Origin: Planctomycetota bacterium
GTDB lineage: Bacteria > Planctomycetota > Phycisphaerae > Phycisphaerales > SM1A02
Assembly (NCBI GenBank): GCA_022562915.1
Contig: JADFOJ010000003.1
Location: 32,863 to 96,862 of the forward strand
DNA: 64,000 nt
Direction of reading: 5' to 3'
Shown: piece after piece, positions 24,183 through 59,100 of the stretch
Numbering within the stretch: the stretch's first letter is position 1
How the letters are laid out: each line of letters begins with the position of its first letter
The notes under the pieces: generated by a model
Database searches by the model: none
What the model was told of the DNA's origin: nothing
The model's input: the letters and a program-made list of their open reading frames with translations, nothing else
Program-made: the position numbers and the translations under genes

Positions 24183-24398
24183 GTGCGTGCCCACATACGC
24201 AAGCTGATCGACCAAGCACAACGACCCGTGGACCCCATCGCGCTGGAGTGCACACGGGGCACGGCACTGCGCCTGGCGTCCGAGACGATCCGGCTCGCGC
24301 GCCTCGCCGCCTCCACCCACATGATTCTCTCTGCCAGGATGACGGTCACCGGTATCGACCGCGTCGGGACCGGGGGATTCGGGAAGGATTCGGCATGA
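24183..24398 (+). CDS. Small basic protein leading the flagellar operon
   Basis: A 71-residue protein of unknown function. It is likely real: GTG 24183 is preceded at 6 bases by AAGGAG, and its TGA overlaps the ATG of the FlgF-like gene (ATGA at 24395-24398), giving translational coupling. The sequence is basic and helical (RAHIRKLIDQAQRPVDP, ALRLASETIRLARLAAST). It has no signal peptide or membrane segment. A link to flagellar assembly is inferred only from position. Confidence 0.6.
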   Translation: MRAHIRKLIDQAQRPVDPIALECTRGTALRLASETIRLARLAASTHMILSARMTVTGIDRVGTGGFGKDSA

Positions 24399-25168: not shown

Positions 25169-25193
25169 TCCCGCACACCAAGGAAAACAACCC

Positions 25194-26003: not shown

Positions 26004-26013
26004 GGGATACTCC

Positions 26014-27144: not shown

Positions 27145-27162
27145 TCAACGGAAGGAACTCCT

Positions 27163-33821: not shown

Positions 33822-34190
33822 CTACCGGAGGATGAGGGGCGTCTTCTTCACCTTCTTGAAGGCCTCGCGGGCGCTCTGGACGTCGGGATAGATCTTGAAC
33901 AGCCTGGCCAGTCCCGTCCGGCGGAGGATGGTGACGATCGAACCCGTGGCTGACGCGAGCTTGATCTCGCCGAGTTTCTCGTCCATCTGCTTGTGCAGGC
34001 GCACCAGCACGCCGAGCCCGTACAGAGAAAGGTGATCGAGTTCACTGCAGTCAACGATGATGTTCCAGAGGCGAATGTCGACCATCTTCCCGATCGACTC
34101 GCGGAACTCGGCGGCCGACCCCGAGTTCAGTGCGCCGCTGGCCTTGATGATCAGGACGTTGTCCTGGACATCGTCGAAGCAGATTTCCAT
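33822..34190 (-). CDS. STAS-domain protein, anti-sigma factor antagonist-like
   Basis: The 122-residue product is a single STAS domain (VLIIKASGALNSGSAAEF, LWNIIVDCSELDHL, YGLGVLVRLHKQM, IKLASATGSIVTILRRTGL). STAS proteins bind anti-sigma kinases and are switched by serine phosphorylation. The usual DSSGLG segment is replaced here by SLYGLG, so the normal phosphoserine is missing. It may be a constitutively active or structural STAS protein. It has no anti-sigma partner beside it. Confidence 0.8.
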   Translation of the reverse strand: MEICFDDVQDNVLIIKASGALNSGSAAEFRESIGKMVDIRLWNIIVDCSELDHLSLYGLGVLVRLHKQMDEKLGEIKLASATGSIVTILRRTGLARLFKIYPDVQSAREAFKKVKKTPLILR

Positions 34191-38487: not shown

Positions 38488-38510
38488 GCGTTGCCCGAAT
38501 CTGTTATGAT
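38484..38510 (+). promoter_or_regulatory. Possible extended -10 promoter before the second STAS gene
   Basis: TGTTATGAT at 38502-38510 is a good extended -10 (TGnTATGAT), with a weak TTGAGC 15 bases upstream of the hexamer. If used, transcription would start near 38517, just before the GTG at 38521 that could start the STAS gene. The candidate overlaps the ATG at 38506, so promoter and ATG start are mutually exclusive readings. Confidence 0.3.
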
Positions 38511-38889
38511 CGCCCCTGCGGTGCCTGATCCAAACGCCGAGTACGTGGATGTGACGACCGACGGCGGCGTCGTGACCGCACGGATCACGGAAGCCCACGT
38601 CGAGGAGCAGGCGGCGTCGATCATTCTCAACACCGTCCGAAAGGCGATGAACCACCCCGGCCTCGACCTGCGGGCGGTGGTTCTGGATTTCGGTGAGGTC
38701 GTGTTCATCAATAGTTCCGGCCTCGCGGCCTGCATCGAGCTGCGCAACGCAGCGGCGGCGAAGGACGCGCGCACCATCGTCTACCGCCCCAGGAACAACG
38801 TCAGCGATCTCTTCCGGCTGGTCAAGGTCGATCGGTTGTACTCATTCGCGCACGACGCGAAGGAGCTCGAGGAACTCGTCTCAGGTTGA
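38506..38889 (+). CDS. STAS-domain anti-sigma factor antagonist
   Basis: The roughly 127-residue protein is a single STAS domain: VTTDGGVVTARIT, LDLRAVVLDFGEVVFINSSG, LAACIELRNAAAAKDART and DLFRLVKVDRLYSFAHDAKE. The phosphorylation loop INSSGL keeps the serines, with asparagine for the usual aspartate, so it can be a normal SpoIIAA/RsbV-type switch that binds an anti-sigma kinase. Start uncertain: TTG 38491, ATG 38506 or GTG 38521 are in frame, none with a clear ribosome site. No kinase gene is adjacent. Confidence 0.82.
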   Translation: MIAPAVPDPNAEYVDVTTDGGVVTARITEAHVEEQAASIILNTVRKAMNHPGLDLRAVVLDFGEVVFINSSGLAACIELRNAAAAKDARTIVYRPRNNVSDLFRLVKVDRLYSFAHDAKELEELVSG

Positions 38890-39055: not shown

Positions 39056-39805
39056 CTATCCCCAGTTGGCCAGCAGGATGAGCAGGTCGGTGATCCCGAC
39101 CTCGCAGTCGCCGTCGAGATCGACCGGGCAGTCGGCGCAGAGATCGCACGGGCCCCACTGCTTCAGCAGGATCAGGAAATCAACCATGCCGACGGTGCCG
39201 TCTCCGGTGAGATCGCCAGGCACCGGCGGGGGCGCGCACGCGCTGCACAGATCGGCGGCCGTGGCGGCGCAGATGTTGTCCCACAACGACACGCAGCAGA
39301 ACGAATCCACGGCGCAGACGGCAACGCAACACCTGGCATCATCGCACGCGGGCGTGGGGTTGGGACTGCAGCAGTCGCCGCCGCCGGGGCACACCGGTGG
39401 CGGCGTGCACAGGGCGCACAGGACGTTCGCCTGCTGGGCACACAGCGCGTCCCACGCCGTGTCGCAGCAGAACGGGTTACCCGTACAGACGGTGCTGCAG
39501 CAGAAGAAGTCGTCGCAGCCCGGCGAGGGATTGGCCGAGCAGCAATTGCCGGTGCCGGGGCAGCCGGCACCGCACACGGCGCAGAGGCTGTTCCCCAGGC
39601 TCGCGCAGAGCGAGTCCCACTGGACGTCGCAGCAGAACGGATCGTTCAGGCATACCTCGACGCAGCATGGAAGATCGTCGCAGCCCGGCGAGCCGTTGGC
39701 GATGCAGCAGTCACCGGCGCCGGGACATTGGGCAATCGCCGGCTCGGCGAGAATGAACAGGGCAGCGGCGATCGCGCAGCCCCCAGCGCCGCGTAACCGG
39801 CTCAC
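39056..39805 (-). CDS. Exported cysteine-rich repeat protein with dockerin-like tail
   Basis: The 249-residue protein starts at a GTG that overlaps the TGA of the upstream lipoprotein gene (GTGA). It has a signal peptide (CAIAAALFILAEPAIAQ). Three cysteine-rich repeats of about 55 residues follow, each of the form CPGxGxCCxxNxxPxCDDxx, then CCxxVC, FCCxxxWDxxCA and LCxxC, with about eleven cysteines each. Two dockerin-like loops close the protein (DLTGDGTVGMVDFLILLKQW and DLDGDCEVGITDLLILLANW). The many paired cysteines suggest a disulfide-stabilised extracellular protein. Function unknown. Confidence 0.78.
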   Translation of the reverse strand: MSRLRGAGGCAIAAALFILAEPAIAQCPGAGDCCIANGSPGCDDLPCCVEVCLNDPFCCDVQWDSLCASLGNSLCAVCGAGCPGTGNCCSANPSPGCDDFFCCSTVCTGNPFCCDTAWDALCAQQANVLCALCTPPPVCPGGGDCCSPNPTPACDDARCCVAVCAVDSFCCVSLWDNICAATAADLCSACAPPPVPGDLTGDGTVGMVDFLILLKQWGPCDLCADCPVDLDGDCEVGITDLLILLANWG

Positions 39806-40440
39806 GGCCAGGCGCCGAGGTCCGTGGATGGGTCGCGTTCTACCTGCCAATGGAATCTCGGCACGCGCACGCGCCGTCCGATCTGGATCGTGGCCACCTC
39901 GCCCGACCAGGTGGGCTCGCCGCGGTCGGCCGGTTCGAACACGCACACGATGTCCGCCACCGGCAGGGCCACCTCGTCGGTGCCGCCATTGTCCAGCATG
40001 CTCAGACGAAAGCGGTAGCACTGGCCGAAGGCGGACCGGCCGCGAGCCCGCTGGAACTGCTCGTTGTCGATTCGCCACTCGTGCAGCGGCTCGGCGCCGG
40101 GGCGCGAGACGTCGCCGGGGGCGAACATCGCGAAGATGAAGGCGCCGTCCTGGTAGATGGCCGGCGGGTACCGGCGATCAAACAGGTGTGCCGTCGCGTT
40201 AATGAGATCGGGATAGCCGTTGCCGTCGGTGTCCTGCGGCGCCGGCGAGACGTTGAGCACCAGCGCATCGGCACGGGCGTCCGGCGGAGCGGGCTGCAGC
40301 GGACGCGGCTTTGGCGGCAACGGCCGGTAATAGCCTGACAACCTGGTCGTCTCGCATCCCCAGAGCATCGCCGTGCACGCGCCCAGGACAGCCGCGGCCG
40401 CCGCGAACCGGATCATCGAGATGAATGTCGAGCAGATCAT
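39802..40440 (-). CDS. Lipoprotein downstream of the giant secretin (pilotin candidate)
   Basis: A 212-residue product (ATG 40440; 40416 is an alternative) with a lipoprotein signal ending TAMLWGCE. A proline-rich stretch (YYRPLPPKPRPLQPAPPDAR) leads to a domain with DTDGNGYPDLINATAHLFDR and GGTDEVALPVADIVCVFEPA. The family is not recognised. It is encoded on the same strand about 120 bases after the giant secretin gene and is translationally linked to the Cys-rich gene (GTGA overlap). Secretins often need a small lipoprotein pilotin for outer-membrane targeting, so position makes this a candidate. That is inference. Confidence 0.65.
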   Translation of the reverse strand: MICSTFISMIRFAAAAAVLGACTAMLWGCETTRLSGYYRPLPPKPRPLQPAPPDARADALVLNVSPAPQDTDGNGYPDLINATAHLFDRRYPPAIYQDGAFIFAMFAPGDVSRPGAEPLHEWRIDNEQFQRARGRSAFGQCYRFRLSMLDNGGTDEVALPVADIVCVFEPADRGEPTWSGEVATIQIGRRVRVPRFHWQVERDPSTDLGAWP

Positions 40441-40559
40441 GCGTGGGCCGCCGGCGGACCGTGGATTGCGAGTCGCACCGTAGGTTCGTATCGGACTCGT
40501 TTCCAGATCCGTCGGAAACATTTGCTCCCGAATTGCCGATGGTTCGATAAAAGCATGCA

Positions 40560-43500
40560 TCAGTCTTCAGCCTCACGGTTCTGGTCCACCTCGAAGGTCG
40601 TCAACGGCTCGGCATCCTGCGACTGTTCGGACTCTGTCCGGAGTTCCACGGTGATCTTGTCATCGTCGGAGCGTTTCCACCGTGCCTCCATGTCCGCCTT
40701 GATCCGTTGCTTCCAGGTGCGCTTCTCCGGGATCAGACGACCGTCGCGGAGACCCTGCTTCACCTGGGGCGACACGGACATGCGATCGATCTCGCGGCGG
40801 GTCAACTGATTGATGCGCTCGTAGTCCGCCGGGCTCGTGATGACGTGTGGGGTCAGCACGATGAGCAGCTCGATCTTGCGAGACTCCTCGCTCTCGCTCC
40901 GGAAGAGCCAGCCGATCAGCGGGATGTCGCCAAGGATGGGCACCTTGCTCTTGCGCAGCTCGTACATATCCTGGATCAGCCCACCGATGACGATCGTCTG
41001 CCCGTCGCGCACGGTGACGGTCGTCGAGGCGGTGCGCTTCGTGAGGATGGGCACCGCGAGGTCCTCACTGACCTGGATCGTCTCGTTGGTGAGATCGGTG
41101 ATCTCCGGCTCGATCAGCATCCTCACGAAGCCGTCGGGGTTGATCGACGGCGTCACGTTGAGAATCACGCCGATGTCGATGAACTCGACGGTCGTCTGCT
41201 GTGTGCCCCCGCCCGCCAGGCTGCTGCTGCTGGCGCGGCCGATGTTCTCACCGATCTGGATGCGGGCCGGCTGGTTGTTCGCGGCCATCACCGATGGATT
41301 GCTCAGCACCTGGATCCGCCCCTGTGCCTCCAGTGCTTTGAGCAGGAGCGAGAAGTTGTCGCCGGAGACCGAGAAGGTCGGCAGGCCAAGCGTCGGCAGG
41401 AACGCGCTGGCCAGGCTCGATGAGGCGCCGAAGATCACGTTCTGGCTGCCCTGTGAGTTGCTCTGGAACCGGGCGTCGACGCCCCACTCCAGGGCCCCGG
41501 TCAGCGAGATCTCCGCCAGCAGCACCTGGATGAGCACCTGCGGCGGGTCGACGTCCAGCTCGAGGATCATCTGCCGGACACGGTCCATGTAGCGTGGGCT
41601 CGCGCTGACGAGCACGGTGTTGGACTTCTCGTCACCGACGATGGTGACCTCGCGCTCCAGCAGCCGGCTCGCCGAGCCGAGTTGGCCCGGGCTCAGCGTG
41701 CTCAGGAGTTTCCGCTGCTCCTGGTCGACGAACTGGGTCAGCACGGACGCCACCTCGGTCGCCACGGCGTTGCGCAGCGGGTACGCGAAGACCTCGCGCT
41801 CGTTCGCCTCCAGCGCGTCGAGGTTCTGAACGACCTCCGCGACCAGGTCGAGGTACAGCGGTGTCCCCGATACCAGCAGGCTGTTGGTCCGGTTGTCCAC
41901 CGTGATGCTGAGGTCCCGGCGATCATCGGGCACCGCGGTCAGCTCGGCGCCGAGAAGCTGTGCGTAGGGGCCGGCGGGTCCGCCCGTCGCGTCCCGCACG
42001 GCGCCTGCCGGGGCAATGTCGGTCTGCTGCCGCTCGCGCGGCTTGAGGACGTAGAGATTGCCGCGGCGCCGTAAGTTAAACAGGTCCGTGAGAATCTCCG
42101 CCATCGCCAGGGCGTCGGCGTTCACGAGCTTGAAGATCCGGACGTTCTGCGCACCGACACTCGACTCGTCGAGATCGCGGACCATCCGCTCGATCATGGC
42201 CATCGCCGCCTGCGGCGCGGAGACGATGATGGTGTTGGTGCGAAAGTCCGGCGTCAACGTGATCGACTCGCGGATCGCGGTGCTCACCTCCATCTCGGAG
42301 ATCCGCGGCTCGCCGTTGCCCATGCTCCCTGCGTACTGGTGGAAATACTTCAGCACGATGGCCTGCCGTGATGCTCTGCGCGTCCCCATGCCGCGGCCGC
42401 TCAGGACGTCCTCGATGAGACCGACCGTCTCCAGGGCGTTGGCGGACATAAGCGGGATGTACCTGATCTCGACGACCTGGGCGGGCCTGGCCCCGTCGAG
42501 CTGGGCGACGAGCCGCTTGATCGCGCGCACGTCATCGACGGGCGCACTGATCAGCACGGCGTTGAGACGTTCGTCGGCGGTCACGCGAACCGTGTCGCGG
42601 CCGCGGCGACGGTTGGCGTCGTCAACGTAGAGGTCGCCGAGCAGGGCGACGACGTCCGAGGCGGTGCTGCTGACGAGCTGGACGATCTCGACCTCCGAGC
42701 CCGGATTCCGCCCGGCCAGGCCGCCGGTGAGCGCGTCGATCAGGTCGTGGATGACCTGGAGGTTCTCATCGCTGGCGGCGACGATGAGGCTGTTGGTCGC
42801 GGTGTCCGGCTCCACGCTGACGCGGTCCGAGGGCTGCGCCGCCGTGCCGAGGGATTGCTGGCGCTGCCGCATGAGCGATTGAATCCTCGGCGCGAGGCGG
42901 TCCGCTGCCGAGGACTCCAGCGGGATCACCGCCAGGCGAATCGCCGGATTGCTCGGCGTGGCTTCCAGCTTCCGGACGAGCTGGGTGATGGCGGCGAGGT
43001 CATCGGGGCCGGCCGCGACCATCAGGCTGTTGGAACGCGGGTCCGTGAGCACCAGCGGCTGCTGGCTCCGGCGCAGCTCCGGCGGCATGTCCGCATAGCG
43101 CCGTTCCATGATGAGCTTGACCGTCTCGGCAATGCGTTCGACGTTGCCGCGGCTCACCGGGATCACGCTGATCAGCGCATCCTCGTCGATCGCCGCACGA
43201 TCGAGGTCCTCCACCAGCGCCCGCACGACCTCGAACGACTCGCGCCCCGCGGCGATGACGAGGCTGTTGGTCCGGGTGTCCGGGACGATCGTCGCCCGCT
43301 GGAGTTCGGCGGTCTCAGGCTCCGTGCGGCGAAGGCGCTCCAGGCGGGCCTCCATGAGCTGCCGGACCATCGCCGCGACCCGCGTCGCGGACGCGTTGAC
43401 CAGATCAAGCCGCTGCAGCGCCGCCAGCTCGGGGGGAACAGCCGTGTCCAGCGTTTCCAACAAGCCCTCGACGACCGCAAAGCTGCTCCTGCTCGTCGAC

Positions 43501-46500
43501 ACCACCAGTGAATTGGTGCGATCGTCGGCCTGGATGATGACGAGGTCGTCGCGCCGGATCATCCCCGCCTGCTCCTGCTGGGCGAACAGACGGGTGACCG
43601 TGGCGGCCACCCGCCCCGCCGAGGCGTGCTCCAGCGGATAGATCCGTACGGACGCTCCCGGCGCCGCGGATTCGATGTCCATCATCCTGATCAGTTCCGA
43701 GACGACCTCGAGGTTCATCGGCGTCCCCACGAGCACCAGCGCGTTGATCTTCGGCTCCGCCCGGATGACAAGACGGGTCATCGGGCTGAACACGTCGGAT
43801 TCCAGCACCCGCCCCCCATTGTTCGAGACCCTGGCGAGCCGCAGCCGCGCCACCTGCCGCTGCATGGGGTTCGCCTGACGGCCGTCCATGACGCCGTCGA
43901 CGAGGATCGCGTTGAGCGTCTCGGCGAGGTCCTGGGCGTCGGCGAAACGCAACGGAACGATCCGCGGCTCGATCCATCCGTTGGAGACCTCCCGGTCGAT
44001 TCTCAGGTACAGCACCTCGACCAGCGCCACCGCATCGATCTTGCCGGCCACGATCACGGTGTTCGTCCGCTCATCGACGCTCAAGGCAATCGTGTCCAGC
44101 AGGGCCTTGCCGACGTGCCCCTCGGGCACGCCGGAGACGCGGGAGCCCGGCACGCGCCCAAGCTGCTTGCCCTGGGCGAACAGCTCGCGCACGATCCGCG
44201 CGAAGTCCGCCGCGGCGATGTTCGAAAGCGGGAAGAGCTTCACCTCGACCGCGTCGGTGATGGGCAGCCGGTCGAAGGTGGCCACGACCTCGGCCATTGC
44301 CTCGACGTTGCCGGGCGTCGAGCTGATCACGATCGCGTTGAGCCCTGCATCCGCGATGACCCGGATCGGCTTGGTGAGGTCGAGCGTGACGGTGCTCTCG
44401 CCGAGCCCGACACGGCTGATCGCCAGCCGCCGCACCTGCTCCTGGACCGCGCGGGCCAGCGGGGTCCGGGACTGCTGCGAGCCGGGGTTCAGGATCTCCT
44501 GGAGGATCCGCGCCATCGCCGGCGCCTCGGCGTTGCGCAGCATGATGACGCGCATCTGCGACTCCGCGAGGATCGGCTCGCTGTCGATCGCCTTGAACAC
44601 GCCGATGATCGTCTCGCGGTCGGCGGGGTTGGCGACGACGATGACGGCGTTGCGACCCGTCAGCGGCACGACCCGGATAGGCTCGGTGACCAGCCGCGAC
44701 ACCGTGTCGTCGCTCGGCGGCTTGTCCAGGCCGATCGTCTCGACGATCTTGCGGGCCGCGTCGGGTGAGATGTTCTCGAGTTCGATGATGAAGATGCCGT
44801 GCCCGGCCGGCGGGGAGAGCTCGTCCAACTGCCGGACGGTCTCGCGTATCTCGTCGAACATCGCGGCGGTACACGCCACGACCAGTGTGTTGCCCGCCAC
44901 GTCCACCTCGATCGCCAGCGGCTGGCCCGCCTGGGTCGCCTTGGCGCGGTACGCCTGGGAGATCGCCGCGGAGACGCGACGGACCGGGGCTGCATTGAGC
45001 TTGAGGACGTAGACGGACAGGCCCTGCTCCGACGCCTCGCTCTGAAGGGCCTCGGCAAGGGCCCGGATCTGCCGGAACTCCTCTTCCTCGGCGCGGACGA
45101 TGATCGAGTTGGACGCCGTGTCCCCGACGATGCGCAGCGCCCTGCGACCCCGAGTGTCACCGGACTGCTCGTACAGGCGGCGCAGGGCCTCGGCGAGCTT
45201 CGTCGGGCTGCCGCTGCGCACGGGAATAATCTGCGGCGGCGGCAGCTTCGCGTAGTCGGCGACGTCGAGCTGCGTCACGATCTGCTCGATCTTCCGCATG
45301 TTCTGCCGGCTCGCCGAGATGATCACCGAGTTGGTCAGCGGCTCGGCGGCGGCGCGCACCCACTCCTGCGCCTCGACGAGCACCGTGGGGTAGTCGCGTT
45401 CGTCACGTCGGGACCGGTCCGCGTCCGACGGCCGCCCGCCGCGATCGGTCTGGCGGCGGCCGCGCGAGATCTCCGTGGAGAACGCCCCGTTGATCGCCCC
45501 GGCCACGGACCGCGCGTCGGCGTACGTCAGCGGCAGCACCTTGAGCTGCAGCGATGTGTCGTACTCCTCGCTGTCGAGCTTGGCCAGCAGCGCCCGGATG
45601 TTGGTCCACTCGCTCTGGTCGGCGGTGATCACGAGACTGTTGGAGGCGGGGTCGGCGACGATTCGCGCGTTGAACTTGCCGGGCGTGTCCGCTTCGAAGG
45701 AGAACGGCCCGTAAAAGACCGACAGCGCCTCCTGGACCTGCTCGGCCCGGGCGAAGCGCAGCGGAACGAAGTCGGTGATGCGCTGGTTCTGCGATGGCTG
45801 GTCGAGCTCGGCGATGATCCGCCGGATCTGTTCGAACTGGTCGCTCGTCGCCGCGATGATGAGCTGGTTCTCCAGCCGGTTGATGTCGATCTTCGGCTCG
45901 ACCTCGCCGCCCGGTCCATCGTCGCGCCCGCGCAGGAACGTGCGCAGCGTAAAGGCGACGTCCACCGCCAGCGCGTGCTCCAGCGGGATGATGCGGTACT
46001 CCAGCGGGCTCGCCGCGGGCACGTCGTCGATCTTGGCGATGAGCGCCTCGATGACCGGGAACGACTCCTCGGTCGCCGTCACGATGATGCTGTTGGAACG
46101 CCGGTCGTCGACGATCTTCGCCTTCACCTCGACCGCGGGCCCGTCCCCGCCCTCGAGCCTGATCGAGATGCCCTTGGTCTCGCCGCGGGAGTCGAGCTCC
46201 AGGGTCTCGCGCAGGATCCGCACGACCTCCCGGGCCCGCGCACCCTTGAGCGCGTAGGTCCGGATGATCGTCTCGTCGCTCGCCGAGGGCGCGTCGAGAC
46301 GCTCGATCAGCGCGACGGCCTGGACGAACTGGGCGCGGGGGGCGTTGACGACCAGACTGTTGGTCCGGGCATCCGGCGTCACGATCACGCCGGCCCCGCC
46401 ACCGCCACCTCCGGAACGGCGGCCGAACTGCTGGGTGACGATCCGGGCGATCTCCTGCGCGTCGCCGTCGGTGAGCGCAATGATCTCGATGCGGCGTTCG

Positions 46501-49500
46501 CCGGAGACGTCCGGCTGATCCATCCTGGTCAGCAGGTCGCGGATCATGGCGAGGTCGTCCGCCTCGGCAGAGACGATCAGCGTGTTGGTGGACGCGCTGG
46601 CGGTGATCGTGGTCGTGGACGCCGGCGCGCCGACGGCCCGGTCGCGGTCGCGCAGGAACCGGGTGAGCGTGTCGGCGAGCTCGCGGGCCTGCGCGAACTC
46701 GACGGGCAGCACCGCCATGTGCTGCTCGCCACGGTCGGACTGGTCGTCGATGTTCGTGATGAACTCGGCGATCTCCTGCTGCTGCTTCCTGGTGCCGTAG
46801 ACGATGATGACCTTGTTGCGTATGTCGGTGCGGATCCTGGCATCCGTCGGGTCCGCTGCCTGCCACCAGCGGCGGTTGCGGGAGGAGTACGCGAACGCCT
46901 CGGTGAGCACGTCGGCGACCACGTTGACGTCGGCGTGTTGCAGCGGGTAGAGCTTGACGACCCGTTGCTCGCCGGAGCCCTCGGGTGCATCGAGGAGCTC
47001 GATCAACTGCTCCACGACCTCGAACTTGTCGCCTTCTCCAGTGACGATCAGCGCGTTGAGCCGCAGGTCGGCCTGCACCGCGAGCGAGCCGCGGCGGGAG
47101 CGGCCCCTGTCACCCTGGTTGCCGAAGAACCACCATGGGCCTTCCTCGGCCAGGCTGATCTGGTTGGCAAGGTTCTGAACGGTCCGGGCGATGTCGGCTG
47201 CCTTGGCGTGCCGCAGTTCAAAGATGCGGAACCCCAGCGCCTGGCTCGCCTGCCGCGTGTCAAAATGCTCGACGAGCTTCTCGATCTCGTCGAAGTCCTC
47301 ATCGTTGGCCGCCACGAGCAGCGTGTTGCTGTTGCGGTCACCGATGATCGACACCTGCCGTGACCGCGCCCGGCGGCCGCGGCCCGCGGAGGCGATCTGC
47401 GCGCGGTCGTCGAACAGACGTTGAAGGGCCGCCGCCACGGTCGAGGCGTCGGCCCGTTCGAGAACGATGGTCCGCACCTTGAACTGGCGGGTGGGCGGGC
47501 GGTCTATCTCCTTGAGCACGGCCTCGATCTCGGCCATGATCTCTTCGCTGGCGCGCACCAGCAGCGTCCCGGTCGCGTCGTCGGCGACGATCATCGTCGA
47601 TGCCCGCCGCGCCTGGTCCGTTCCCAGGACGACCTTCTCCAGCATCCGGGCCGCCTGCTGCGGCTGCGCCGCGGTCAGCTCGATGATCTTCAAGGGATAC
47701 CGGTCCTCGCCGAGCTTGCGGTCAAGCTGCTCCATCAGGGCGTCCACTTCCTGGAGCTGCTCGCGCGAGGCGGTCACCAGAAGCGTGTTGGTGCGCCGGT
47801 CGGCGGAGAACTCCGGCTGGATGGCGCCCTGGCCCAACTGGGCCCGCATGTTCTCGAACCGCACGCGAAAGATACTGCGCAGCGTGTTCTGGAGGTCCCG
47901 GGCCTCGGCGTACTGCAACGGGTAGAGCTTGAGCGTCGTCTGCACGTTGATCGGCGTCTGGTCGAGCAGCTCGATGAACTGATCGATGAAGCCGATCGCC
48001 TCCGGCGGGCCCATGACCACCAGGGCATTGTTCTGCGGATCGACGTTGACCTTGACCCGGTCGGGGTTGAAGACCGCCTCGATGGTCGTGTCCCCGGCCA
48101 GCAGCGTCACCGCGAGGTCGCGCATGCGCTGCGCCTGGCGGCCGCGCCGCCGCAGCGCGGCGTCCGGCTGGAGCAGTTGCCGGACGCTCTCGGCCGCGCG
48201 CTGGGCGGTGATCGTCTCCAGCGGGTACACCTTGACGACCATCTGCTGCACCATCGCCGGCTGGCTCAACGCGGCGATGAGGTCGCCGACGACCTCGAAG
48301 TCGAAGTCGTTGCATGTCACGATCAGCGCGTTGTTGGCCGTGTCGGCGATCACCGCCACGCGGCGGCGCAGGTCGCCGCGCCGCCCGCCCGGGGGCGTCA
48401 TCGCGTTGATCGTCTGCTGGATGAGCCGCGAGGTCGTCAACGCGCTCAACTCTTCGGGAAGCCCGATGTAGTGAACCTGTCCCGGCGCCGCGGGGAGCTG
48501 TTCGACGAGCTGCTTTGCGAGGTCCGCGACACGCTTGACGGCCCGGGGCGAACCCACCACCACGAGACTGTTCGTGGCGGGATCGATCGCGATGGTGATC
48601 TCGCTGCCGGCGACGTCGTCGTCGTCGTCGGATTGGAACGCGGCGAACACCGTCGCGACGACGGCCGCTTGAAGGTTCATCGGCAGCGCCGCGCCGGGTT
48701 CGCCATCCTCGTCGTCAGCGTCGCCCGCGGACGTCTCGCGCGACGCGCCGGACCTCTCACGCCCACGGCGGCGTTCCATCAGCTCGTCGAGGGAGATCAC
48801 CCGCACGTTGCTGCCGCGGCCGGTACGCAGCATTCGTTTGAGCGTCCGGGCCAGCTCCGCCGCCGAGGCACGCCCGGGGTCGATCGGAATCATCCGCATC
48901 TCGCGCGACGAGGCGATCGTGGCCCGATCGAGGTCGCCGACGATCTGCTCGATCATGGCAAACTGCTCGTCCGTGGCGAGGATCAGCAGGCTGTTGCTCG
49001 CGGCGTCCACGCGGATCGTCGGCGCCGGCTCGGCCGCACTGGGATCGTCGAAGATCGCCGCCAGGTTCACCGACAACTCCCGTGCGTCGGCGTTGCGAAC
49101 GGTCATCACGCGGACGCGGCGGGTCGACGAGGCGATCACGTCGCGGGGATCGACGTCCAGTTGCATGACCATCTGCTCGGCGACGGCCAGCAGCGACGGC
49201 GGCGCCGAGATCACCACGGCGTTGAGCCGCGTGTCGGCGGCGACGCGGATCGTCGGCTCACCGCGTCGCCGCTGTATCTCGGCGTACTGCATCAGCGCCC
49301 ACGACGGCAACCGCCCGGTGTCCACCAGTTCGTCTCGACCCAACAACTGGGAGACGATCGGGGCCACGCGCTCGGCCCGGGCGTATTTCAGGAACACCGT
49401 CCGCACCTGGTGCTGGTCCGCCGGCGGCGCGCCGTCGAGCTCGGCGATCATCGCGGCGATCCGCTCGACCTGCGCCGGCTCCGCGGTCACGATGATCGAG

Positions 49501-52500
49501 TTGGTCGACGGCTCCGCGGCGACTGACACGGGCGCCGTGTCGCCCTCGGCGCGTGCCCGCGTCTGGACCGCCTGGGTCACTGCGCGAGCCACCTCCGGGG
49601 CCTTCGCCTGGGTGAGCTGGAAAATCCGGACGTCGACCGAGTCGACCGCGGACCGCGGATGATCGAGCTGGGCGACGAGGCTCTCCGCCACCTCCAGGAT
49701 CGACGGCGGCGCCGAGAGGATCAGCGTGTTGCTCTTGCGGTCCGCCGACAGGTGAAGCAGCGCCGCCGGGTCCGGCCCGGCGTCGGGGACGTCCTCGGCG
49801 ATGCGCTGCACCAGGATCGCCTGGAGCATCGGCACCAGTGTCTCGGCCCGGGCGTTGTCGAGGGTGAAGAACCGCAGCGCCGTGACGGGCCCCACGCGCC
49901 GCGCATCCAGCTCGGTGAGCACCTGCTCCACGCGGTCGAAGATGTCCGCGGGCCCGGAGACGATGAGCGTGCGGCTCCGCGGCTCGGTCGTGATCGAGGT
50001 CATGACGCGGCGATCGCGCCCCGACGGGCTGAGGTTCCCGTCCGCGGCGAGTTGGCGCAGCGTCGCACTCACCGCGTTGAGGTCGGCGTTCAAGACGTGA
50101 TAGGTGCGGACCTGGGTCTCGTCCGTCATCTGCTGGCGGTCGAGCTGCTCGACGAGCGCCTGGAAGCCGGCCATCCGCTGGATCGGCGCGTCCACGATCA
50201 GCGAGTTCGTCTGCGGGTCGCCCCGAACCACGATCTCGCGCGGCGGCTGGAGGTGGTACAGCAGGCGCCCGCGGCGGTCGCGCGGCACCGGCGGCTGCGG
50301 GAACATCTCGTCGATGGTGCGGGCGAGTTCCTCGGCGCGGGCGACGCGAAGCGGGAAGATCCGGATCTCGCGGCCCTCGGCGTCGAAGCGATCCGCGGTA
50401 TTGAGCTCCTCGACGAGCATCTGGATGTCCGGAAGCATGTCCGGGTGGGCGGCGACGATCAGCGCGTTGGTCTGGCTGTCGGAGTAGATCGTCACCGGCC
50501 GGTCGCGGCGCTCTTCGGGCGGGCGGCGGTCGTACTGGCGCATGAGCGCGCGAGCGAGGTTGTCCGCATCGGCGGTTCGCAACTGGAGGATGCGCAGCGG
50601 CGGCATGTCCTGCGGTTCGGGCTCGTCGAAGCTCGCCACCAGCGAACGGATGATCGCCTGTTGATCCCGCTGGGCGCCGATGAGCACGGAGTTCGTCCGC
50701 TGGATCGCGACGAAGACCGGCGGCGGGCCGCCGCGGCCGCGGAGCATGCCCAGCGCGCTGGAGGCGAGATCCTCCAGGAACTCGACGGTCGCCTCGGCGG
50801 TCTGGTTTTCCAGCGCGATGAGCTGGACGTCCGGCGGCGGCGCGATCGAGTCCTGCAGCTCGTTGAGGATCGCCATGAAGCGCAGCATCGCCTCGTCGTC
50901 GGCGACGACGAGCAGTGTCGAGTTGTCCGCGTCCACCTCGACGCTCACCGGCAGCGCGTCGGGAACCTCGGCGGTCTGCTCCTCGTAGAGCCGCAGCGCC
51001 TGGTCCGCCATCTGCCGGGGTTCCGTCCCCGTGACGTCGAAGACGCGCAGCGATCGGCGGATCGGTACGGCCTGGAGATCATGCAGCATCTGCTCGATCT
51101 TCTCGAACGTGACGTCGTCGCCCGCCACGATGAGCGTCCGGCTCACAGGCTCGGCCAGGATCGTCACCTCGACCGGCTTGCCGCCATCCTCCGGCAACTC
51201 GCTGAGCACCCCCTGGCGGGCGAGGCCCATCAGCGTCCGGGCGATCTGGGCCGGGTCCCCCCGCTCGATGTGATAGGTTCTCAGCTGGGCCCTCGGCGGC
51301 AACTGCACGCGGTCGAGCTGCTCGACGAGCGCCTCGAACTGGGCCCGCCGCTCGGACGGCGCTTCGACGATCAGCGTGTTGGTGGCCGCGTCCGCGGAGA
51401 CGTGGACTTCCTTGGGTTCCTGAAGGTGCGGCAGCGGGCGGCCGCGGCGATCGAGCGGCATCGGCGGCTGCGGGTAGAGCCGGTCCAGCGCCACGGCGAG
51501 GTCGACGGCCCTCGCCCGGTTGAGACTGAACAGCATCGTCTCGCGCTCGGCCTCCCCGGAGCGGTTGATCGAGTCCACGAACTGCTTGACCTCGTCGTAG
51601 ATCTCGGTGTGGGCGGTCACGATCAGCGTGTTGGTCCCGGCGTCGGCGTCGATGGTGACGGGCATCTCGCGTCGCTGCTCGGCGGGGCGGGCCTCGTAGC
51701 GGCGCCGCAGCATGCTCGAAATCTGCATGGCGTCCGCGGCCCGAACCTGGATCAGTTGCAGCGGCGGCAGCTCCGTCGGCTCGAAGCGGTCCAGGATGCG
51801 CACCGCCCGCTCGATCACCTGGTGCTGCACCGGCTCGGCGAGGACGTACAGGCTGTTGGTGCGCTCGAGGACCTCGATCGAGGGGTCGGGCACGGCCCGC
51901 GACGGGTCCACGGCAGCGGTGGTGGCGAGCAACGTGCGCAGCGGCTCGATGACGTCGGTGACCCGGGCGCTGTGCAGCTCGATGATCCGGCCGGTCCGCG
52001 CCGGCGGCAGGAGTTTGCGGGCCTCGGCCACCGCGGTCTCGTATGCCCGCACGCTCTCGACGGTACCGGATATGAGCAGGTTGCCCGTCAACGGATCGAA
52101 ATCAACCGAGGGAACCGGCCGCTCGTCGGGGTCGAGACCGCGGTTGAGCCTCTCGTAGACGAAGCCCGCCTTCTTCATGAGCGCCGTCGCATCGATGCCG
52201 CTCAGCGTGATCACGCGGAACTGGAAGTCACCGGGGACCGGCCGATCGAGCGTCGCCACGAGCCTCTCGATGACGCCGAACTGCTCCGGCCGGGCGGTGA
52301 TCACCAGCAGGTCCAGCGGATCGACGGCCTCGATGGTCGGCGGGTCGTAGCGCGACCCGTCGTGCGGTTGAAGCAGTTGCCGGGCGAGTACCAACACCGG
52401 CGCCACGAGCGTGCTCGGTTCGGCGCTGGTGACATGGACCTGGCGCGTCTCGCGCTCGATGACGGTGTTGTCCTGGACCATGCGCAGCACCTCGGCGAAA

Positions 52501-53948
52501 CGCTGCTGCGCCGCGACCGACCCGATGGCGGTCAGTTGCCGGCCCGATGCATCGAGGTTCAGCGCGAGCGCCCACGTGGGATCGCCGGCGTCGACCTGGC
52601 TGAGATACAGTTCGCGGCTCCGTTCAAGGACGGCCGCTGTATCGGCGGCGGTCAGCCGGTACAGCCGCACCGTGCGATCCAGGTGCGGCGGCTGGTCGAG
52701 CACGGGCACGAGCGCCTGGACCGCCTCCACGTCGGCGACCGGCCCGGCGATGATCAGTGAGCGGCGGTCGGGACCGGGGACCATCTTCGTGGTCACGAGT
52801 TGACGGCCGTTGAGCAGGCTCCTGAGGGCCGCCGCCACCGCAGCCGGGTCGGCGTGGTCCAGCGCGATGACCGTAATGGCCCGTTGCGTGGCACCGGTCG
52901 TGGTGATTGGCGGGCCGTCGATCTCGGCGAGAAGCGCCGCCGCCTCGTCGATGGACCCGGTCGAGCCGATGAGGGTGATCTTGGCGAGATCGTCCAGCGC
53001 GATGATCGTGGGTCGCTGCTCCTCGGGAAGCTTGGCGTAGAGCTGGGTGAGCTTCGCCGTGGCTGCCTCGGGGGCAAGCCGCGCCAGCGCGAAGGTCCGC
53101 ACGGTGCGGCCGGCGCCGATCGCCGGCACGTCCAGCAGTGCGATCGCTTCGCGCAGCTTGTCGATACGGCTCTGGACGCCCTTGGCGATGATCGAATTCG
53201 TACGCTCATCGGCGGAGATGCTCAGCCCCGGCATCGAGGTCTCCTCGGTCTTGACCTGCTTGCCCTTCTGATCGGTGACCCACTTCTCGATTCTGTGCGA
53301 CAGCAGCGCTTCCAGCGGCTCCATGAGCTCCTTTGCCTTGGCGTACCGGAGCGTGAAGAACTCGACGGCGCCCTCCGGGTCCTCGCGGTCAAGTTCGTCC
53401 ACGATCGTCAACAGGCGGCGGATCTGCCCGGCGGTCTCCGTGATCACCAGCGAGTTCTGCTGCTCCATCGCGGCGACCGAACCGTATTCCGCGACCATTG
53501 CCGCGAGCTGCTCCGCCAGCGGCTTGGCCATCGCGATCTCCAGCGGCCGGACCACCGTGACGATCTCGTGGGGGCTGACGCTCGACGGCACTTGACCGAT
53601 GAAGACGGGGATGTTCTCGCGCTGCATCTCGGTGAGCTTCTGGAGATAGAGCATCTCGTCGCTCACCCGAAGCGCCACGCCCTTGGACTGCAGGAGAATG
53701 TTCAGGACGACCAGCGCCTCGTCGAGCGTGTACTGCTCCGGCGCGAGGTAGTCCAGCGTGCCCTGCGGCACGTCCGTCTCGCGCACGACAGGAAGACCGG
53801 TCACCCGCGAGAAGTAGTCGAGGACCTGGTCGAACGAGGCACCCTTGAAGTTGAACCGGATCAGCTCCGGTTCGTCGGCATACGCCGTGGCCGGCACCGC
53901 ACATGCCACCGCCAGCACGAGTGCACCCAGATTGTCGAACCGCATCAC
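40560..53948 (-). CDS. Giant secretin: about 48 tandem secretin-N modules and one C-terminal secretin domain
   Basis: One uninterrupted frame of 4,462 codons. GTG 53948 or ATG 53945 follows TAAGGAG. Order: signal peptide (GALVLAVACAVPATAYA); N0/STN-like domain, about 28-105 (FNFKGASFDQVLDYFSRVTG); about 48 modules of 70-130 residues by hand count. Each module has an I-x-P-L-x-x-A-x-A-x-x-[LV]-A-x-x-L start, a D-x-[RA]-[TS]-N-[ST]-[LI]-[IV]-V core and a closing L-x-x-[LM]-D helix, the NolW/Secretin_N pattern. The last 330 residues (about 41546-40560) are a normal pore domain: QVLIQVLLAEISLTG, LSNPSVMAANNQPARIQIGE, VRDGQTIVIGGLIQD, VPILGDIPLIGWLFR, ELLIVLTPHVI. GspD and PilQ are about 650-750 residues with few modules. 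Modules are diverged in sequence, so recent slippage or an assembly artefact is unlikely. Probable role: outer-membrane export channel with a very long periplasmic stem. Confidence 0.93.
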   Translation of the reverse strand: MMRFDNLGALVLAVACAVPATAYADEPELIRFNFKGASFDQVLDYFSRVTGLPVVRETDVPQGTLDYLAPEQYTLDEALVVLNILLQSKGVALRVSDEMLYLQKLTEMQRENIPVFIGQVPSSVSPHEIVTVVRPLEIAMAKPLAEQLAAMVAEYGSVAAMEQQNSLVITETAGQIRRLLTIVDELDREDPEGAVEFFTLRYAKAKELMEPLEALLSHRIEKWVTDQKGKQVKTEETSMPGLSISADERTNSIIAKGVQSRIDKLREAIALLDVPAIGAGRTVRTFALARLAPEAATAKLTQLYAKLPEEQRPTIIALDDLAKITLIGSTGSIDEAAALLAEIDGPPITTTGATQRAITVIALDHADPAAVAAALRSLLNGRQLVTTKMVPGPDRRSLIIAGPVADVEAVQALVPVLDQPPHLDRTVRLYRLTAADTAAVLERSRELYLSQVDAGDPTWALALNLDASGRQLTAIGSVAAQQRFAEVLRMVQDNTVIERETRQVHVTSAEPSTLVAPVLVLARQLLQPHDGSRYDPPTIEAVDPLDLLVITARPEQFGVIERLVATLDRPVPGDFQFRVITLSGIDATALMKKAGFVYERLNRGLDPDERPVPSVDFDPLTGNLLISGTVESVRAYETAVAEARKLLPPARTGRIIELHSARVTDVIEPLRTLLATTAAVDPSRAVPDPSIEVLERTNSLYVLAEPVQHQVIERAVRILDRFEPTELPPLQLIQVRAADAMQISSMLRRRYEARPAEQRREMPVTIDADAGTNTLIVTAHTEIYDEVKQFVDSINRSGEAERETMLFSLNRARAVDLAVALDRLYPQPPMPLDRRGRPLPHLQEPKEVHVSADAATNTLIVEAPSERRAQFEALVEQLDRVQLPPRAQLRTYHIERGDPAQIARTLMGLARQGVLSELPEDGGKPVEVTILAEPVSRTLIVAGDDVTFEKIEQMLHDLQAVPIRRSLRVFDVTGTEPRQMADQALRLYEEQTAEVPDALPVSVEVDADNSTLLVVADDEAMLRFMAILNELQDSIAPPPDVQLIALENQTAEATVEFLEDLASSALGMLRGRGGPPPVFVAIQRTNSVLIGAQRDQQAIIRSLVASFDEPEPQDMPPLRILQLRTADADNLARALMRQYDRRPPEERRDRPVTIYSDSQTNALIVAAHPDMLPDIQMLVEELNTADRFDAEGREIRIFPLRVARAEELARTIDEMFPQPPVPRDRRGRLLYHLQPPREIVVRGDPQTNSLIVDAPIQRMAGFQALVEQLDRQQMTDETQVRTYHVLNADLNAVSATLRQLAADGNLSPSGRDRRVMTSITTEPRSRTLIVSGPADIFDRVEQVLTELDARRVGPVTALRFFTLDNARAETLVPMLQAILVQRIAEDVPDAGPDPAALLHLSADRKSNTLILSAPPSILEVAESLVAQLDHPRSAVDSVDVRIFQLTQAKAPEVARAVTQAVQTRARAEGDTAPVSVAAEPSTNSIIVTAEPAQVERIAAMIAELDGAPPADQHQVRTVFLKYARAERVAPIVSQLLGRDELVDTGRLPSWALMQYAEIQRRRGEPTIRVAADTRLNAVVISAPPSLLAVAEQMVMQLDVDPRDVIASSTRRVRVMTVRNADARELSVNLAAIFDDPSAAEPAPTIRVDAASNSLLILATDEQFAMIEQIVGDLDRATIASSREMRMIPIDPGRASAAELARTLKRMLRTGRGSNVRVISLDELMERRRGRERSGASRETSAGDADDEDGEPGAALPMNLQAAVVATVFAAFQSDDDDDVAGSEITIAIDPATNSLVVVGSPRAVKRVADLAKQLVEQLPAAPGQVHYIGLPEELSALTTSRLIQQTINAMTPPGGRRGDLRRRVAVIADTANNALIVTCNDFDFEVVGDLIAALSQPAMVQQMVVKVYPLETITAQRAAESVRQLLQPDAALRRRGRQAQRMRDLAVTLLAGDTTIEAVFNPDRVKVNVDPQNNALVVMGPPEAIGFIDQFIELLDQTPINVQTTLKLYPLQYAEARDLQNTLRSIFRVRFENMRAQLGQGAIQPEFSADRRTNTLLVTASREQLQEVDALMEQLDRKLGEDRYPLKIIELTAAQPQQAARMLEKVVLGTDQARRASTMIVADDATGTLLVRASEEIMAEIEAVLKEIDRPPTRQFKVRTIVLERADASTVAAALQRLFDDRAQIASAGRGRRARSRQVSIIGDRNSNTLLVAANDEDFDEIEKLVEHFDTRQASQALGFRIFELRHAKAADIARTVQNLANQISLAEEGPWWFFGNQGDRGRSRRGSLAVQADLRLNALIVTGEGDKFEVVEQLIELLDAPEGSGEQRVVKLYPLQHADVNVVADVLTEAFAYSSRNRRWWQAADPTDARIRTDIRNKVIIVYGTRKQQQEIAEFITNIDDQSDRGEQHMAVLPVEFAQARELADTLTRFLRDRDRAVGAPASTTTITASASTNTLIVSAEADDLAMIRDLLTRMDQPDVSGERRIEIIALTDGDAQEIARIVTQQFGRRSGGGGGGAGVIVTPDARTNSLVVNAPRAQFVQAVALIERLDAPSASDETIIRTYALKGARAREVVRILRETLELDSRGETKGISIRLEGGDGPAVEVKAKIVDDRRSNSIIVTATEESFPVIEALIAKIDDVPAASPLEYRIIPLEHALAVDVAFTLRTFLRGRDDGPGGEVEPKIDINRLENQLIIAATSDQFEQIRRIIAELDQPSQNQRITDFVPLRFARAEQVQEALSVFYGPFSFEADTPGKFNARIVADPASNSLVITADQSEWTNIRALLAKLDSEEYDTSLQLKVLPLTYADARSVAGAINGAFSTEISRGRRQTDRGGRPSDADRSRRDERDYPTVLVEAQEWVRAAAEPLTNSVIISASRQNMRKIEQIVTQLDVADYAKLPPPQIIPVRSGSPTKLAEALRRLYEQSGDTRGRRALRIVGDTASNSIIVRAEEEEFRQIRALAEALQSEASEQGLSVYVLKLNAAPVRRVSAAISQAYRAKATQAGQPLAIEVDVAGNTLVVACTAAMFDEIRETVRQLDELSPPAGHGIFIIELENISPDAARKIVETIGLDKPPSDDTVSRLVTEPIRVVPLTGRNAVIVVANPADRETIIGVFKAIDSEPILAESQMRVIMLRNAEAPAMARILQEILNPGSQQSRTPLARAVQEQVRRLAISRVGLGESTVTLDLTKPIRVIADAGLNAIVISSTPGNVEAMAEVVATFDRLPITDAVEVKLFPLSNIAAADFARIVRELFAQGKQLGRVPGSRVSGVPEGHVGKALLDTIALSVDERTNTVIVAGKIDAVALVEVLYLRIDREVSNGWIEPRIVPLRFADAQDLAETLNAILVDGVMDGRQANPMQRQVARLRLARVSNNGGRVLESDVFSPMTRLVIRAEPKINALVLVGTPMNLEVVSELIRMMDIESAAPGASVRIYPLEHASAGRVAATVTRLFAQQEQAGMIRRDDLVIIQADDRTNSLVVSTSRSSFAVVEGLLETLDTAVPPELAALQRLDLVNASATRVAAMVRQLMEARLERLRRTEPETAELQRATIVPDTRTNSLVIAAGRESFEVVRALVEDLDRAAIDEDALISVIPVSRGNVERIAETVKLIMERRYADMPPELRRSQQPLVLTDPRSNSLMVAAGPDDLAAITQLVRKLEATPSNPAIRLAVIPLESSAADRLAPRIQSLMRQRQQSLGTAAQPSDRVSVEPDTATNSLIVAASDENLQVIHDLIDALTGGLAGRNPGSEVEIVQLVSSTASDVVALLGDLYVDDANRRRGRDTVRVTADERLNAVLISAPVDDVRAIKRLVAQLDGARPAQVVEIRYIPLMSANALETVGLIEDVLSGRGMGTRRASRQAIVLKYFHQYAGSMGNGEPRISEMEVSTAIRESITLTPDFRTNTIIVSAPQAAMAMIERMVRDLDESSVGAQNVRIFKLVNADALAMAEILTDLFNLRRRGNLYVLKPRERQQTDIAPAGAVRDATGGPAGPYAQLLGAELTAVPDDRRDLSITVDNRTNSLLVSGTPLYLDLVAEVVQNLDALEANEREVFAYPLRNAVATEVASVLTQFVDQEQRKLLSTLSPGQLGSASRLLEREVTIVGDEKSNTVLVSASPRYMDRVRQMILELDVDPPQVLIQVLLAEISLTGALEWGVDARFQSNSQGSQNVIFGASSSLASAFLPTLGLPTFSVSGDNFSLLLKALEAQGRIQVLSNPSVMAANNQPARIQIGENIGRASSSSLAGGGTQQTTVEFIDIGVILNVTPSINPDGFVRMLIEPEITDLTNETIQVSEDLAVPILTKRTASTTVTVRDGQTIVIGGLIQDMYELRKSKVPILGDIPLIGWLFRSESEESRKIELLIVLTPHVITSPADYERINQLTRREIDRMSVSPQVKQGLRDGRLIPEKRTWKQRIKADMEARWKRSDDDKITVELRTESEQSQDAEPLTTFEVDQNREAED
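49900..50608 (-). repeat. Three-module block in the giant secretin, copy 2 of a higher-order repeat
   Basis: Protein-level repeat. The modules beginning MPPLRILQLRTADADNLARA, then FPQPPVPRDRRGRLLYHLQP, then QVRTYHVLNADLNAVSATLR correspond in order to the three modules at 51066-51771. The offset is about 1,165 bases (about 388 residues, five modules). Confidence 0.7.
51066..51771 (-). repeat. Three-module block in the giant secretin, copy 1 of a higher-order repeat
   Basis: Modules beginning LPPLQLIQVRAADAMQISSM, then YPQPPMPLDRRGRPLPHLQE, then QLRTYHIERGDPAQIARTLM. They match the block at 49900-50608 more closely than neighbouring modules match each other, which shows that the array grew partly by duplication of multi-module segments. 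Confidence 0.7.
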
Positions 53949-56137: not shown

Positions 56138-59100
56138 GTGCCGGGTGTGCAGACAAAAAAAGGAATCTGCGGCGTGTGCCCCGCCGGGTGCTGGGTCCAG
56201 GTTGATCTCCAAGACGGCATCCTGAAGGACATCCGGCCGGACACGGGTCACCCCCTGGGAATGATCTGCCGCCGTGGGCAGCACGCCCCGGAGATCATCT
56301 ACTCCGAGAAGCGTCTGCGCTATCCCATGAGACGCGTGGGCCCCAAGGGAACCCACGAGTTCGAGCGCATCACCTGGGATGACGCATACGACGCCATCGT
56401 GGCGACGCTGCACCGGTTCCGTGAAGAGTCGGGACCGGAATCGGTCGCCATCTACACGGGGCGCGGCGCTTTCGAGACCTCGTTGTGCGACGTGTTCCAG
56501 CCGAAGGGCGTCGCGGTCTCCTCGGCGTCCAGCGTGCTGTTCCCCTTCGGCTCGCCGAACACCATGGGCGTGGGCGCGCTGTGCTACGTGTCGTTCGCCA
56601 TGATCGCGCCGCACGTCACGATGGGGCGCATGCTGGTGAACATGTACAACGACATCGAGAACGCGGAGCTGGTCGTGGTGTGGGGCGCCAACCCGGCCAC
56701 GGACTCGCCGCCGCTGGACATGCACAGGCTGGAAGCCGCGGCGGCGCGCGGCGCCGAGATCGTCGTCATCGACCCCCGCCGCACGGAGTCGGTCACGCGC
56801 ACCGGCGCCCGCTGGATCCCCATCCGGCCCGGCACCGACGGCGCGCTCGCCCTGAGCATGATCGAGGTGATGCTCGACGAGGAACTGTACGACGAGCCCT
56901 TCGCCGAGAACTGGTGCCACGGCTTCGACGAACTGGCGACCTACGTACAGCATTTTCGCCCGGAAGCGGCCGAGGCCATTACCGGTGTGCCGGCGGCGAC
57001 CATTCGCGAACTCGCCCGCCGCATCTGCAACGCCGGCGGCGCGTGCCCGATGATGTACACCGGCCTGGAGTACTCCAACAGCGGCGTCCAGGCGATACGC
57101 GCGGTGCTCACGCTGTTCGCGCTGGCGGGGCAACTCGACGTCCCCGGCGGCATCGGCCTGGCGATGCTGAACTCACACTTCCCGATCAACCGTGCAGGCA
57201 ACCAGGAGAACCCCGACCTGGACCGGGCGGTCGCGCGAACGAAGTTCCCGATCTACAGCGACTACCGCGGCGAGAGCCACGCCAGCGGACTGGTGACGAG
57301 CGTGCTCGAAGGAGATCCATACCGGATCAGGGGCCTGATCATCCACGGCGCGTCGCTCTTGACAAGCTGGCCGCAGACGCCGCGATGGCGGGAGACGCTC
57401 TCGAAGCTCGACTTCGTGGTGTGCATCGATCGGCAGCTCACCGCGGACTCTGCGTACGCGGACATCGTGCTGCCGGCGACCACCATGTTCGAGATCGATT
57501 CGTACATGGTGTACGGCCCGATCTTCCGGCTGCGCGAGAAGCTCATCGAGCCCGTCGGCGAGGCCCGCAACGACTACCTGATCATGGCCGAGCTGGCGAG
57601 CCGGCTGGGCTATGGCGACCGCTATCCGCAGACGGAGCAGGAGATGATCCGGGCGGCACTGGAGGGTTCCGGGTTCTCCCTGGAGGATGTCAAGGCGGCC
57701 GGAGGCTGGGTGAAGATCCCCACCCCGATGATGCAATACAAGAAGTGGGAGAAGGGCGGCCTGCGGCCGGACGGCGCGCCGGGCTTCGACACCCCCACGG
57801 GCAAGTTCGAGATCTGCTCCACGGTCCTGCAGGATCACGGCTACGAACCGTTGCCGAAGTACACCGAACCGAAGGAGGGACCGCTGGCGAGCCCCGGCGC
57901 GATCGAGGACTTTCCGCTGGTGTTCAATTCCGGCGCCCGGCCCCACACCGACTTCCGCTCGCAGCACCACGGGATCAAGGGCCTCGTGAAGGACAACCCC
58001 GAGCCGACCGTGGAACTCAACGAGCAGGACGCCGCCGAGCGCGGCATCCGGCCGGGCGACCTGGTCGAGGTCCGCACGAAGCGCGGCAGTGTGCCTTTCC
58101 GTGCGCGTGTCACCAACGACATCGTTCGGGGTGCAATCGAATGCAACATGGGCGGCGGCACGCCGGTCGGTCCCAAGTCCTGGCGCGAGTGGAACGTCAA
58201 CGAGCTGACGGACCTTGACAACTACGACGAGATCTCCGGCTTCCCGGTGTTCAAGTCACTGCTGTGCGAGGTGGTCAAGGTCCGCTCCGGCACACACGGT
58301 GCGGTGAAATCCAACGGCGGCGCCGCCGCGCGCTGCGGTCCGGTCCCCCTGTCCGTCACGGCCCGCAAGAAACCGGCCCGGCACATCTACCTCGACAACA
58401 ACGCCACGACCCGGGTGGCACACGCCGTCCGGGAAGCCATGCTGCCGCACCTCGACGCGGCGCACGGCAATCCCTCCAGTATCCATCGAGCCGGGCTGGG
58501 TGCCAGGGAGGCCGTCGAGCAGGCCCGCCGCCAGGTTGCCGGGCTCATCAATGCCCGGCCGCGCCGCATCGTGTTCACCGGCGGCGGCTCGGAGGCGGAC
58601 AACCTCGCGCTGAAGGGCGTCGCGTTCGCGCATCGCGGTACGGGCGGCCACATCGTCACCAGCGCCACCGAGCACCCGGCGGTCCTGGCTGCTTGCGGGT
58701 TTCTCGAACGGTCCGGGTACCGGGTGACCTGTTGCGAGGTGGACGGACAAGGCCTGGTGCACCCCGACACACTGCGGACCGCGATCACCGACGACACCAT
58801 TCTCGTCTCCATCATGATGGCCAACAACGAGACGGGCACCATCCAGCCCATCAAGGAGTTGTGCGCCATCGCGCACGAACGGGGCGTACTCTTTCACACC
58901 GACGCGGTGCAGGCCGTCGGCAAGATCCCCGTCGACGTGCAGGAGCTGGACGTGGACCTGCTGAGCCTCTCCGGCCACAAGTTCCACGGGCCCAAGGGCG
59001 TGGGGGCGCTCTACGTCAGAAAGGGCGTCGAACTGGAGCCGTTGATTCACGGCGGCAGGCAGGAGCGCGGGCTCCGCGGCGGCACCGAGAACGTCGCGGC

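Follow-up and report, generated by a model that had tools for sequence, protein, structure and literature searches.

The subject of this report is a gene in a 64,000-nucleotide stretch of DNA, called the window throughout, from a Planctomycetota bacterium (Phycisphaerales, SM1A02; assembly GCA_022562915.1, contig JADFOJ010000003.1, positions 32,863 to 96,862 of the forward strand). The gene, at 40560..53948 on the minus strand, was identified from its open reading frame, its translation and its Pfam and NCBIfam matches as a giant gspD, and encodes a secretin of 4,462 amino acids and 488.8 kDa. It is confirmed that this protein carries 48 secretin-N modules. Judged by its sequence and operon it is a GspD, the secretin that forms the outer-membrane pore of a type II secretion system (T2SS), so its working partners are not unknown. 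We consider it probable, at roughly 0.6, that it is a T2SS GspD whose 48 modules pile up ring upon ring to make a tube that likely far exceeds 100 nm, leading from the inner-membrane pump to the outer-membrane pore.

A preliminary description of this DNA had read one open frame here, encoding a real secretin with about 48 modules, and the profile searches bear this out. Pfam finds 42 stretches matching Secretin_N (PF03958), each at E<=1 and together worth 1263.7 bits, which is far over the ten or so modules set beforehand as the limit below which the reading should be given up. A profile self-trained from the giant recognises 46 modules, and two more (residues ~284-345 and ~428-494) were placed by eye in leftover module-sized gaps, giving 48; with a broader profile the count is 45 at E<0.05. 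The array so defined (Pfam, self-trained profile and eye) covers residues 130-4136 (41541..53561, minus strand), and the spacing between module profile matches is short and mostly uniform, with a median of 14 residues. Ahead of the array are a signal peptide read by eye (residues 1-24, ending in VPATAYA before DEP; 53877..53948, minus strand) and an N0 domain of the GspD type, with approximate borders from profile matches (residues ~30-105; 53634..53861, minus strand), which is the predicted docking site for the inner-membrane platform. Behind the array lies the secretin pore domain (residues 4205-4370; 40839..41336, minus strand), matched by PF00263 at 5e-52.

The pore had earlier been called GspD-type, and this assignment holds: in a PDB profile search of the pore GspDs score best (1.5e-61) and PilQ is clearly weaker (9e-36). 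The best NCBIfam match of the giant is gspD (TIGR02517), PilQ again scoring far lower than GspD, and a separate 713-aa secretin sits among pilus-type genes on contig C41 of the same genome. At the other end of the protein, when residues 24-445 and their relatives (39 N-termini) are searched as a profile against the PDB, T2SS GspD again comes first, at 1.4e-25. The GspD N0 family PF21305 matches 30 of the 39 aligned N-termini at E<=0.5, the best at 2e-6; on the giant of the window itself its E value is 0.014, under the curated cut-off. T2SS secretins have the domains N0, N1, N2 and N3 (available text of PMC10550240), that is, three modules after N0, and the giant with its 48 departs from this layout.

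The genes around the giant in its relatives point to the same system. In all 40 relatives with 2 kb of upstream sequence gspL lies upstream, and the giant is mostly preceded also by gspF to gspK and by a gspM-gspC fusion (M/C), in the order gspF-G-H-I-J-K-L-M/C. GspG is above its curated cut-off, and GspF is under the NCBIfam GspF cut-off. The M/C protein has no PDB relative by sequence (best E 0.43), and Pfam on 25 M/C proteins gives T2SSM in two and PilN in two, both weak. Its structure model contains a PilO/GspM-like domain together with the GspC homology-region fold, which is the fold that binds N0; the partner expected for N0 was therefore found by structure alone.

The number of modules in this operon slot is far from constant. 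After T2SS genes there are three modules in genomes G063 and G143, which are members of the giant's class, one of them from the same order, and six in G412, from another class. The 40 relatives with gspL upstream have 22 to 52 modules with the same profile, and the longest relative encountered, in genome G044 (locus L107, 1441-19938, minus strand; 6,165 aa), has 61, also after T2SS genes. At loci with no T2SS operon seen alongside, the secretins have 5 (G397), 9 (G455) or 20 modules (G010). Since the same slot holds from 3 to 61 modules, length changes while the remaining system stays, and module count does not define the family; the length of the secretin would be set by module number over this range.

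It might be argued that the array was inflated by mis-assembly or read-through, and the draft status of the window's genome, at 153 contigs, would allow for that. The single open frame lies on the minus strand, and the plus strand of 40560-53948 has stops; its GC by codon position is 0.70/0.44/0.91, and an AAGGAG ribosome-binding site stands upstream of its GTG-ATG start. At the DNA level, no tandem-repeat rows are found in the gene at default score, and nine short, low-score rows appear at a score of 30, so that repeats collapsed or expanded by the assembler are of no concern. The modules are divergent, with a median identity of 27% among themselves and 40% to the best partner. Furthermore, orthologues of similar length, proposed earlier as a check, are present in other Phycisphaerae: among the matches listed for a class sample of 150 genomes, 40 genomes carry a matching frame that reaches 2,000 aa or more, and some giant-bearing genomes are single contigs or a chromosome record (CP070772.1). 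Given also that the modules are collinear between relatives, an artefact is hardly credible and was rejected.

In the same class sample 102 genomes match the pore-region profile at E<=1e-50. Across a phylum sample of 246 genomes, only six frames of at least 2,000 aa are among the matches listed, all from the window's own order and including the window, and the longest secretin frame outside the class among those matches is 1,413 aa. In public databases related proteins are annotated generically, as 'secretin N-terminal domain-containing protein' or as 'type II secretion system protein D'. No report of a giant secretin was found in full-text searches of open-licence papers, preprints not covered, and within the papers searched the earlier statement that the architecture is unusual and matches no described system stands.

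The order of the modules is conserved. In loci L048 and L016 all 45 modules of the broader profile have reciprocal best matches in the same order, with a mean identity of 62%. Among 15 relatives compared, 30 to 45 modules have reciprocal best matches, fully collinear in 12 and collinear for all but one module in the other three. This one-to-one collinearity shows that the array is old and that its modules hold their places. Shorter relatives are without, among others, contiguous runs of modules (7-15 in L019, 4-9 in L030 and 4-15 in L058, in the numbering of 45). Within the giant, pairwise identity reveals the duplication of a three-module block, the first copy being modules m09-m11 (51066..51752, minus strand) and the second m14-m16 (49896..50591, minus strand), with identities of 42% for m09/m14, 57% for m10/m15 and 39% for m11/m16.

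A mid-array segment of six modules (residues 2484-2975; 45024..46499, minus strand) was modelled with a pLDDT of 85.5. Modelling of a module block had been proposed as a check, and it succeeded in part: six beta-alpha-beta-beta-alpha units were obtained, one with an additional strand, but the placement of neighbouring units is not confident. The third modelled module fits GspD at 1.3-1.5 Å over 59-65 residues and the fourth fits PilQ at 1.9 Å over 68 residues; the others are seen mainly in multi-module structure matches. Inter-module geometry from this monomer model was rejected as uninterpretable (pTM 0.43; multi-module fits ~6-19 Å). Module m34 (residues 2806-2895; 45264..45533, minus strand) contains a low-confidence charged loop and is the approximate equivalent, to within one module, of a site at which the array is cut in some relatives.

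None of the 14 loci fetched from families f16, f18 and f20 has the array in a single gene; it is made instead as two or three exported proteins. It lies in three genes in genome G031, and locus L135 (6146-18664, plus strand) encodes it as three consecutive genes for proteins of 1,281, 1,243 and 1,600 aa. The first proteins have up to 31 modules and lack the pore. The first gene is incomplete, through a contig end or unknown bases, at three of the 14 loci; in the 11 complete first proteins N0 is found at E below 1e-5 in eight, at 3.6e-4 in L129 and at 0.74 in L128, and is not found in L132. Each second protein has a hydrophobic leader to itself and carries the pore along with 12 to 16 modules. 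T2SS genes lie upstream of the first gene in 11 of the 14 loci, and the other three end without sequence there. That the chain is cut and yet the operon persists speaks for stacking contacts between modules.

From the sequences at the junctions, the main cut appears to fall inside a module, the first half ending protein one and the second half starting protein two. A partial match to the module profile (positions 1-34) ends seven of the 15 upstream proteins, and a partial match from position 26 or later starts ten of the 15 downstream proteins, the rest being judged by eye. Taken singly, most of these half-module matches are weak (E above 0.01). The equivalence of the cut to m34 is uncertain by one module. 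A hydrophobic window of 1.6 or more is present in all 15 downstream proteins. A home-made signal-peptide rule is passed by eight of the 15 downstream proteins and by all 11 complete first proteins, against a background of 26 in 1,280 internal windows. The last 40 residues of the first protein carry a net positive charge at 13 of the 15 junctions, the exceptions being L132 with 0 and the first L135 junction with -5. The idea that a basic tail meets an acidic head was discarded as inconsistent, the head being negative at only nine of 15 junctions.

In all four members of family f7 (L141-L144) the array is a single frame that has, at the place of the cut, a basic stretch, a signal-peptide-like segment whose end is an AxA-type site, and a linker, and it is possible that these giants are cleaved into two proteins at this internal segment within a module. 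In the sister family f21, where the array is likewise a single gene, the segment is degenerate, two of five rows passing the motif rule, so that the relic is seen in six of nine rows of the two families; by the same rule it is absent from all nine other rows, one of which is the f21 row L136 at a contig end. In a tree of the pore, f7 and f21 form a group (88/84), and both fall in a clade (99/97) that also contains the split families. The simplest reading of these sequences would be one fission followed by re-fusion.

The proposed mechanism is as follows. At the inner membrane, N0 would dock onto the GspC domain that the M/C protein carries; every module would make one ring, as in solved secretins, and the rings would stack up to the outer-membrane pore. 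The pseudopilus (GspG-K) would then push folded proteins or enzymes up the tube and out of the cell, while a lipoprotein encoded immediately downstream of the giant may carry or anchor the pore in the outer membrane. The PilQ of Thermus thermophilus has six N rings in a complex 350 Å long (available text of PMC5745081); extrapolated from this, 48 modules would give very roughly 120-200 nm, and we infer a ring-stacked tube over 100 nm. Solved GspDs have 15 chains, and 15 copies of the giant, if assembled in the same way, would form a complex of 7.3 MDa. Such a machine might serve stretches of the envelope where the membranes are distant, with connectors of ordinary length acting where they are close. 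More tentatively, and with slightly less than even confidence, we propose that these are the longest secretins known and form a sectional, ring-stacked conduit of ~120-200 nm, whose length evolves through the number of rings (3 to 61) with conserved places, and which can be built from a single exported protein or from two or three, joined at a ring to which each neighbour contributes a half-module. If this is true, the cells would have two envelope zones, each served by connectors of a different length.

Several results weigh against a T2SS secretin that stacks from membrane to membrane. In the window's own genome the giant and the T2SS operon lie apart, the operon being intact but on another contig; no neighbouring operon was found within the stretch fetched for G125 (also a giant), G010 or G455, nor in the 2.6 kb fetched for the giant of G077, and the stretch fetched for G397 shows gspF only, without the rest of the operon. 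GspH, I and J are named from position and weak matches, no GspE was assigned among the 13 PF00437 places (candidate ATPases) in the window's genome, and the lipoprotein family was not found at seven of the 45 loci with room for it. The inter-module geometry of the monomer model, as stated above, is not confident, and its multi-module matches fit only poorly. Finally, the window's genome encodes a TonB frame of 203 aa, TolC-like frames mostly of 461-644 aa (one of 273 and one of 1,533) and three secretins of 713-967 aa, which implies that much of the envelope is of ordinary width. The preliminary description was right about the secretin and its module count; it overlooked the T2SS identity. A uniformly wide periplasm is disfavoured by these lengths. 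As the sole reason for the giant, such a periplasm was set aside. Connectors of ordinary length in the same genome favour locally wide envelope zones instead; in a different class of planctomycetes, crateriform structures are sites where the membrane is held close to the wall, and away from them it can invaginate (available text of PMC5394234).

Alternatively, the giant could be a T2SS secretin that forms rings only near the pore and N0, the middle of the array being a flexible or folded-back tether, or a scaffold, over a variable gap. The unconfident inter-module geometry, the coexisting connectors of ordinary width and the wide variation in module number would all suit a tether; however, the modules retain their own conserved sequence and place across genera, the gaps between profile matches are short and mostly uniform, and the clade whose chain is cut in two or three keeps the system, where a simple tether would tolerate cuts poorly. 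We therefore regard it as rather unlikely. A role outside secretion, for example in planctomycete fibres or crater-like pits, seems more doubtful still. For Planctopirus and Gemmata the same text (PMC5394234) describes crateriform structures as well as 12-nm pili-like fibres, and the giant gene lies away from the operon in the window's genome and in G125, yet the crateriform data come from another class, in which the longest secretin frame among the matches listed for the phylum sample is 1,413 aa. The constant upstream gspL (40 of 40), the pore nearest to GspD rather than PilQ, and a GspG that passes its curated cut-off, though GspF falls below its own, also speak against such a role and for a secretion system.

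The giant shares with the T2SS GspDs of known structure (PDB 5wq7, 5wln, 6hcg and 3ezj) the N0 domain, the beta-alpha-beta-beta-alpha modules, the pore, the operon and a GspC-like partner. It differs in having 48 modules in 4,462 aa, where they have three in chains of ~620-660 aa, in its block duplication, and in the genes cut into two or three in some families. The secretins described in the available text of PMC10550240 and PMC5745081 have three to six N domains including N0. T. thermophilus PilQ, as presented in the latter, resembles the giant in an extended stack of N rings over a wide periplasm, the giant's rings being predicted; it is a type IV pilus/DNA-uptake secretin, and its six N rings are about one-eighth of the giant's number of N domains. 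The secretins of G412, G397 and G455, from other planctomycete classes, are GspD-like and enlarged, but have 5 to 9 modules in 1,238 to 1,413 aa; gspF to M/C precede that of G412, gspF alone is seen in the stretch for G397, and none of these genes was detected in that for G455. Very long proteins are frequent in the phylum, as a survey of proteins over 5,000 aa reports (PMC11573180), and the word 'secretin' occurs 0 times in its main text.

In much of the class, then, the T2SS secretin has 22 to 61 modules in a slot that holds three in other class members, and this contrast within one clade makes the length-setting of an envelope-spanning machine testable by comparison. The giants also offer an independent molecular handle on periplasm width in these cells, and the natural split secretins a case in which a module is apparently shared between two proteins.

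Directly downstream of the giant is the lipoprotein gene (39802..40560, minus strand; 252 aa as listed). Its start and the stop of the secretin gene overlap (TGATG), and the genome has no second copy. Of 45 relatives with 700 bp or more of downstream sequence, 38 have it after the giant. The lipobox cysteine is present in all 37 aligned rows (of 40 family members), and no relative of known structure was found in the PDB (best E 0.87). The protein is a candidate pilotin or outer-membrane partner. In the same region, a 340-aa cysteine-rich frame (39056-40078, minus strand) has several similar repeats and, by eye, a dockerin-like C-terminus, with no Pfam match, and two small STAS-domain genes lie near the giant (33822-34190, minus strand; 38491-38889, plus strand). 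Elsewhere in the window, a tyrosine integrase adjoins flagellar genes of the FlgF/FlgG, FlgA and FlgH families (23071-27930), and a 1,133-aa frame (56138-59539, plus strand) joins a molybdopterin oxidoreductase with its molydopterin-binding domain to a class-V aminotransferase in an unusual-looking fusion.
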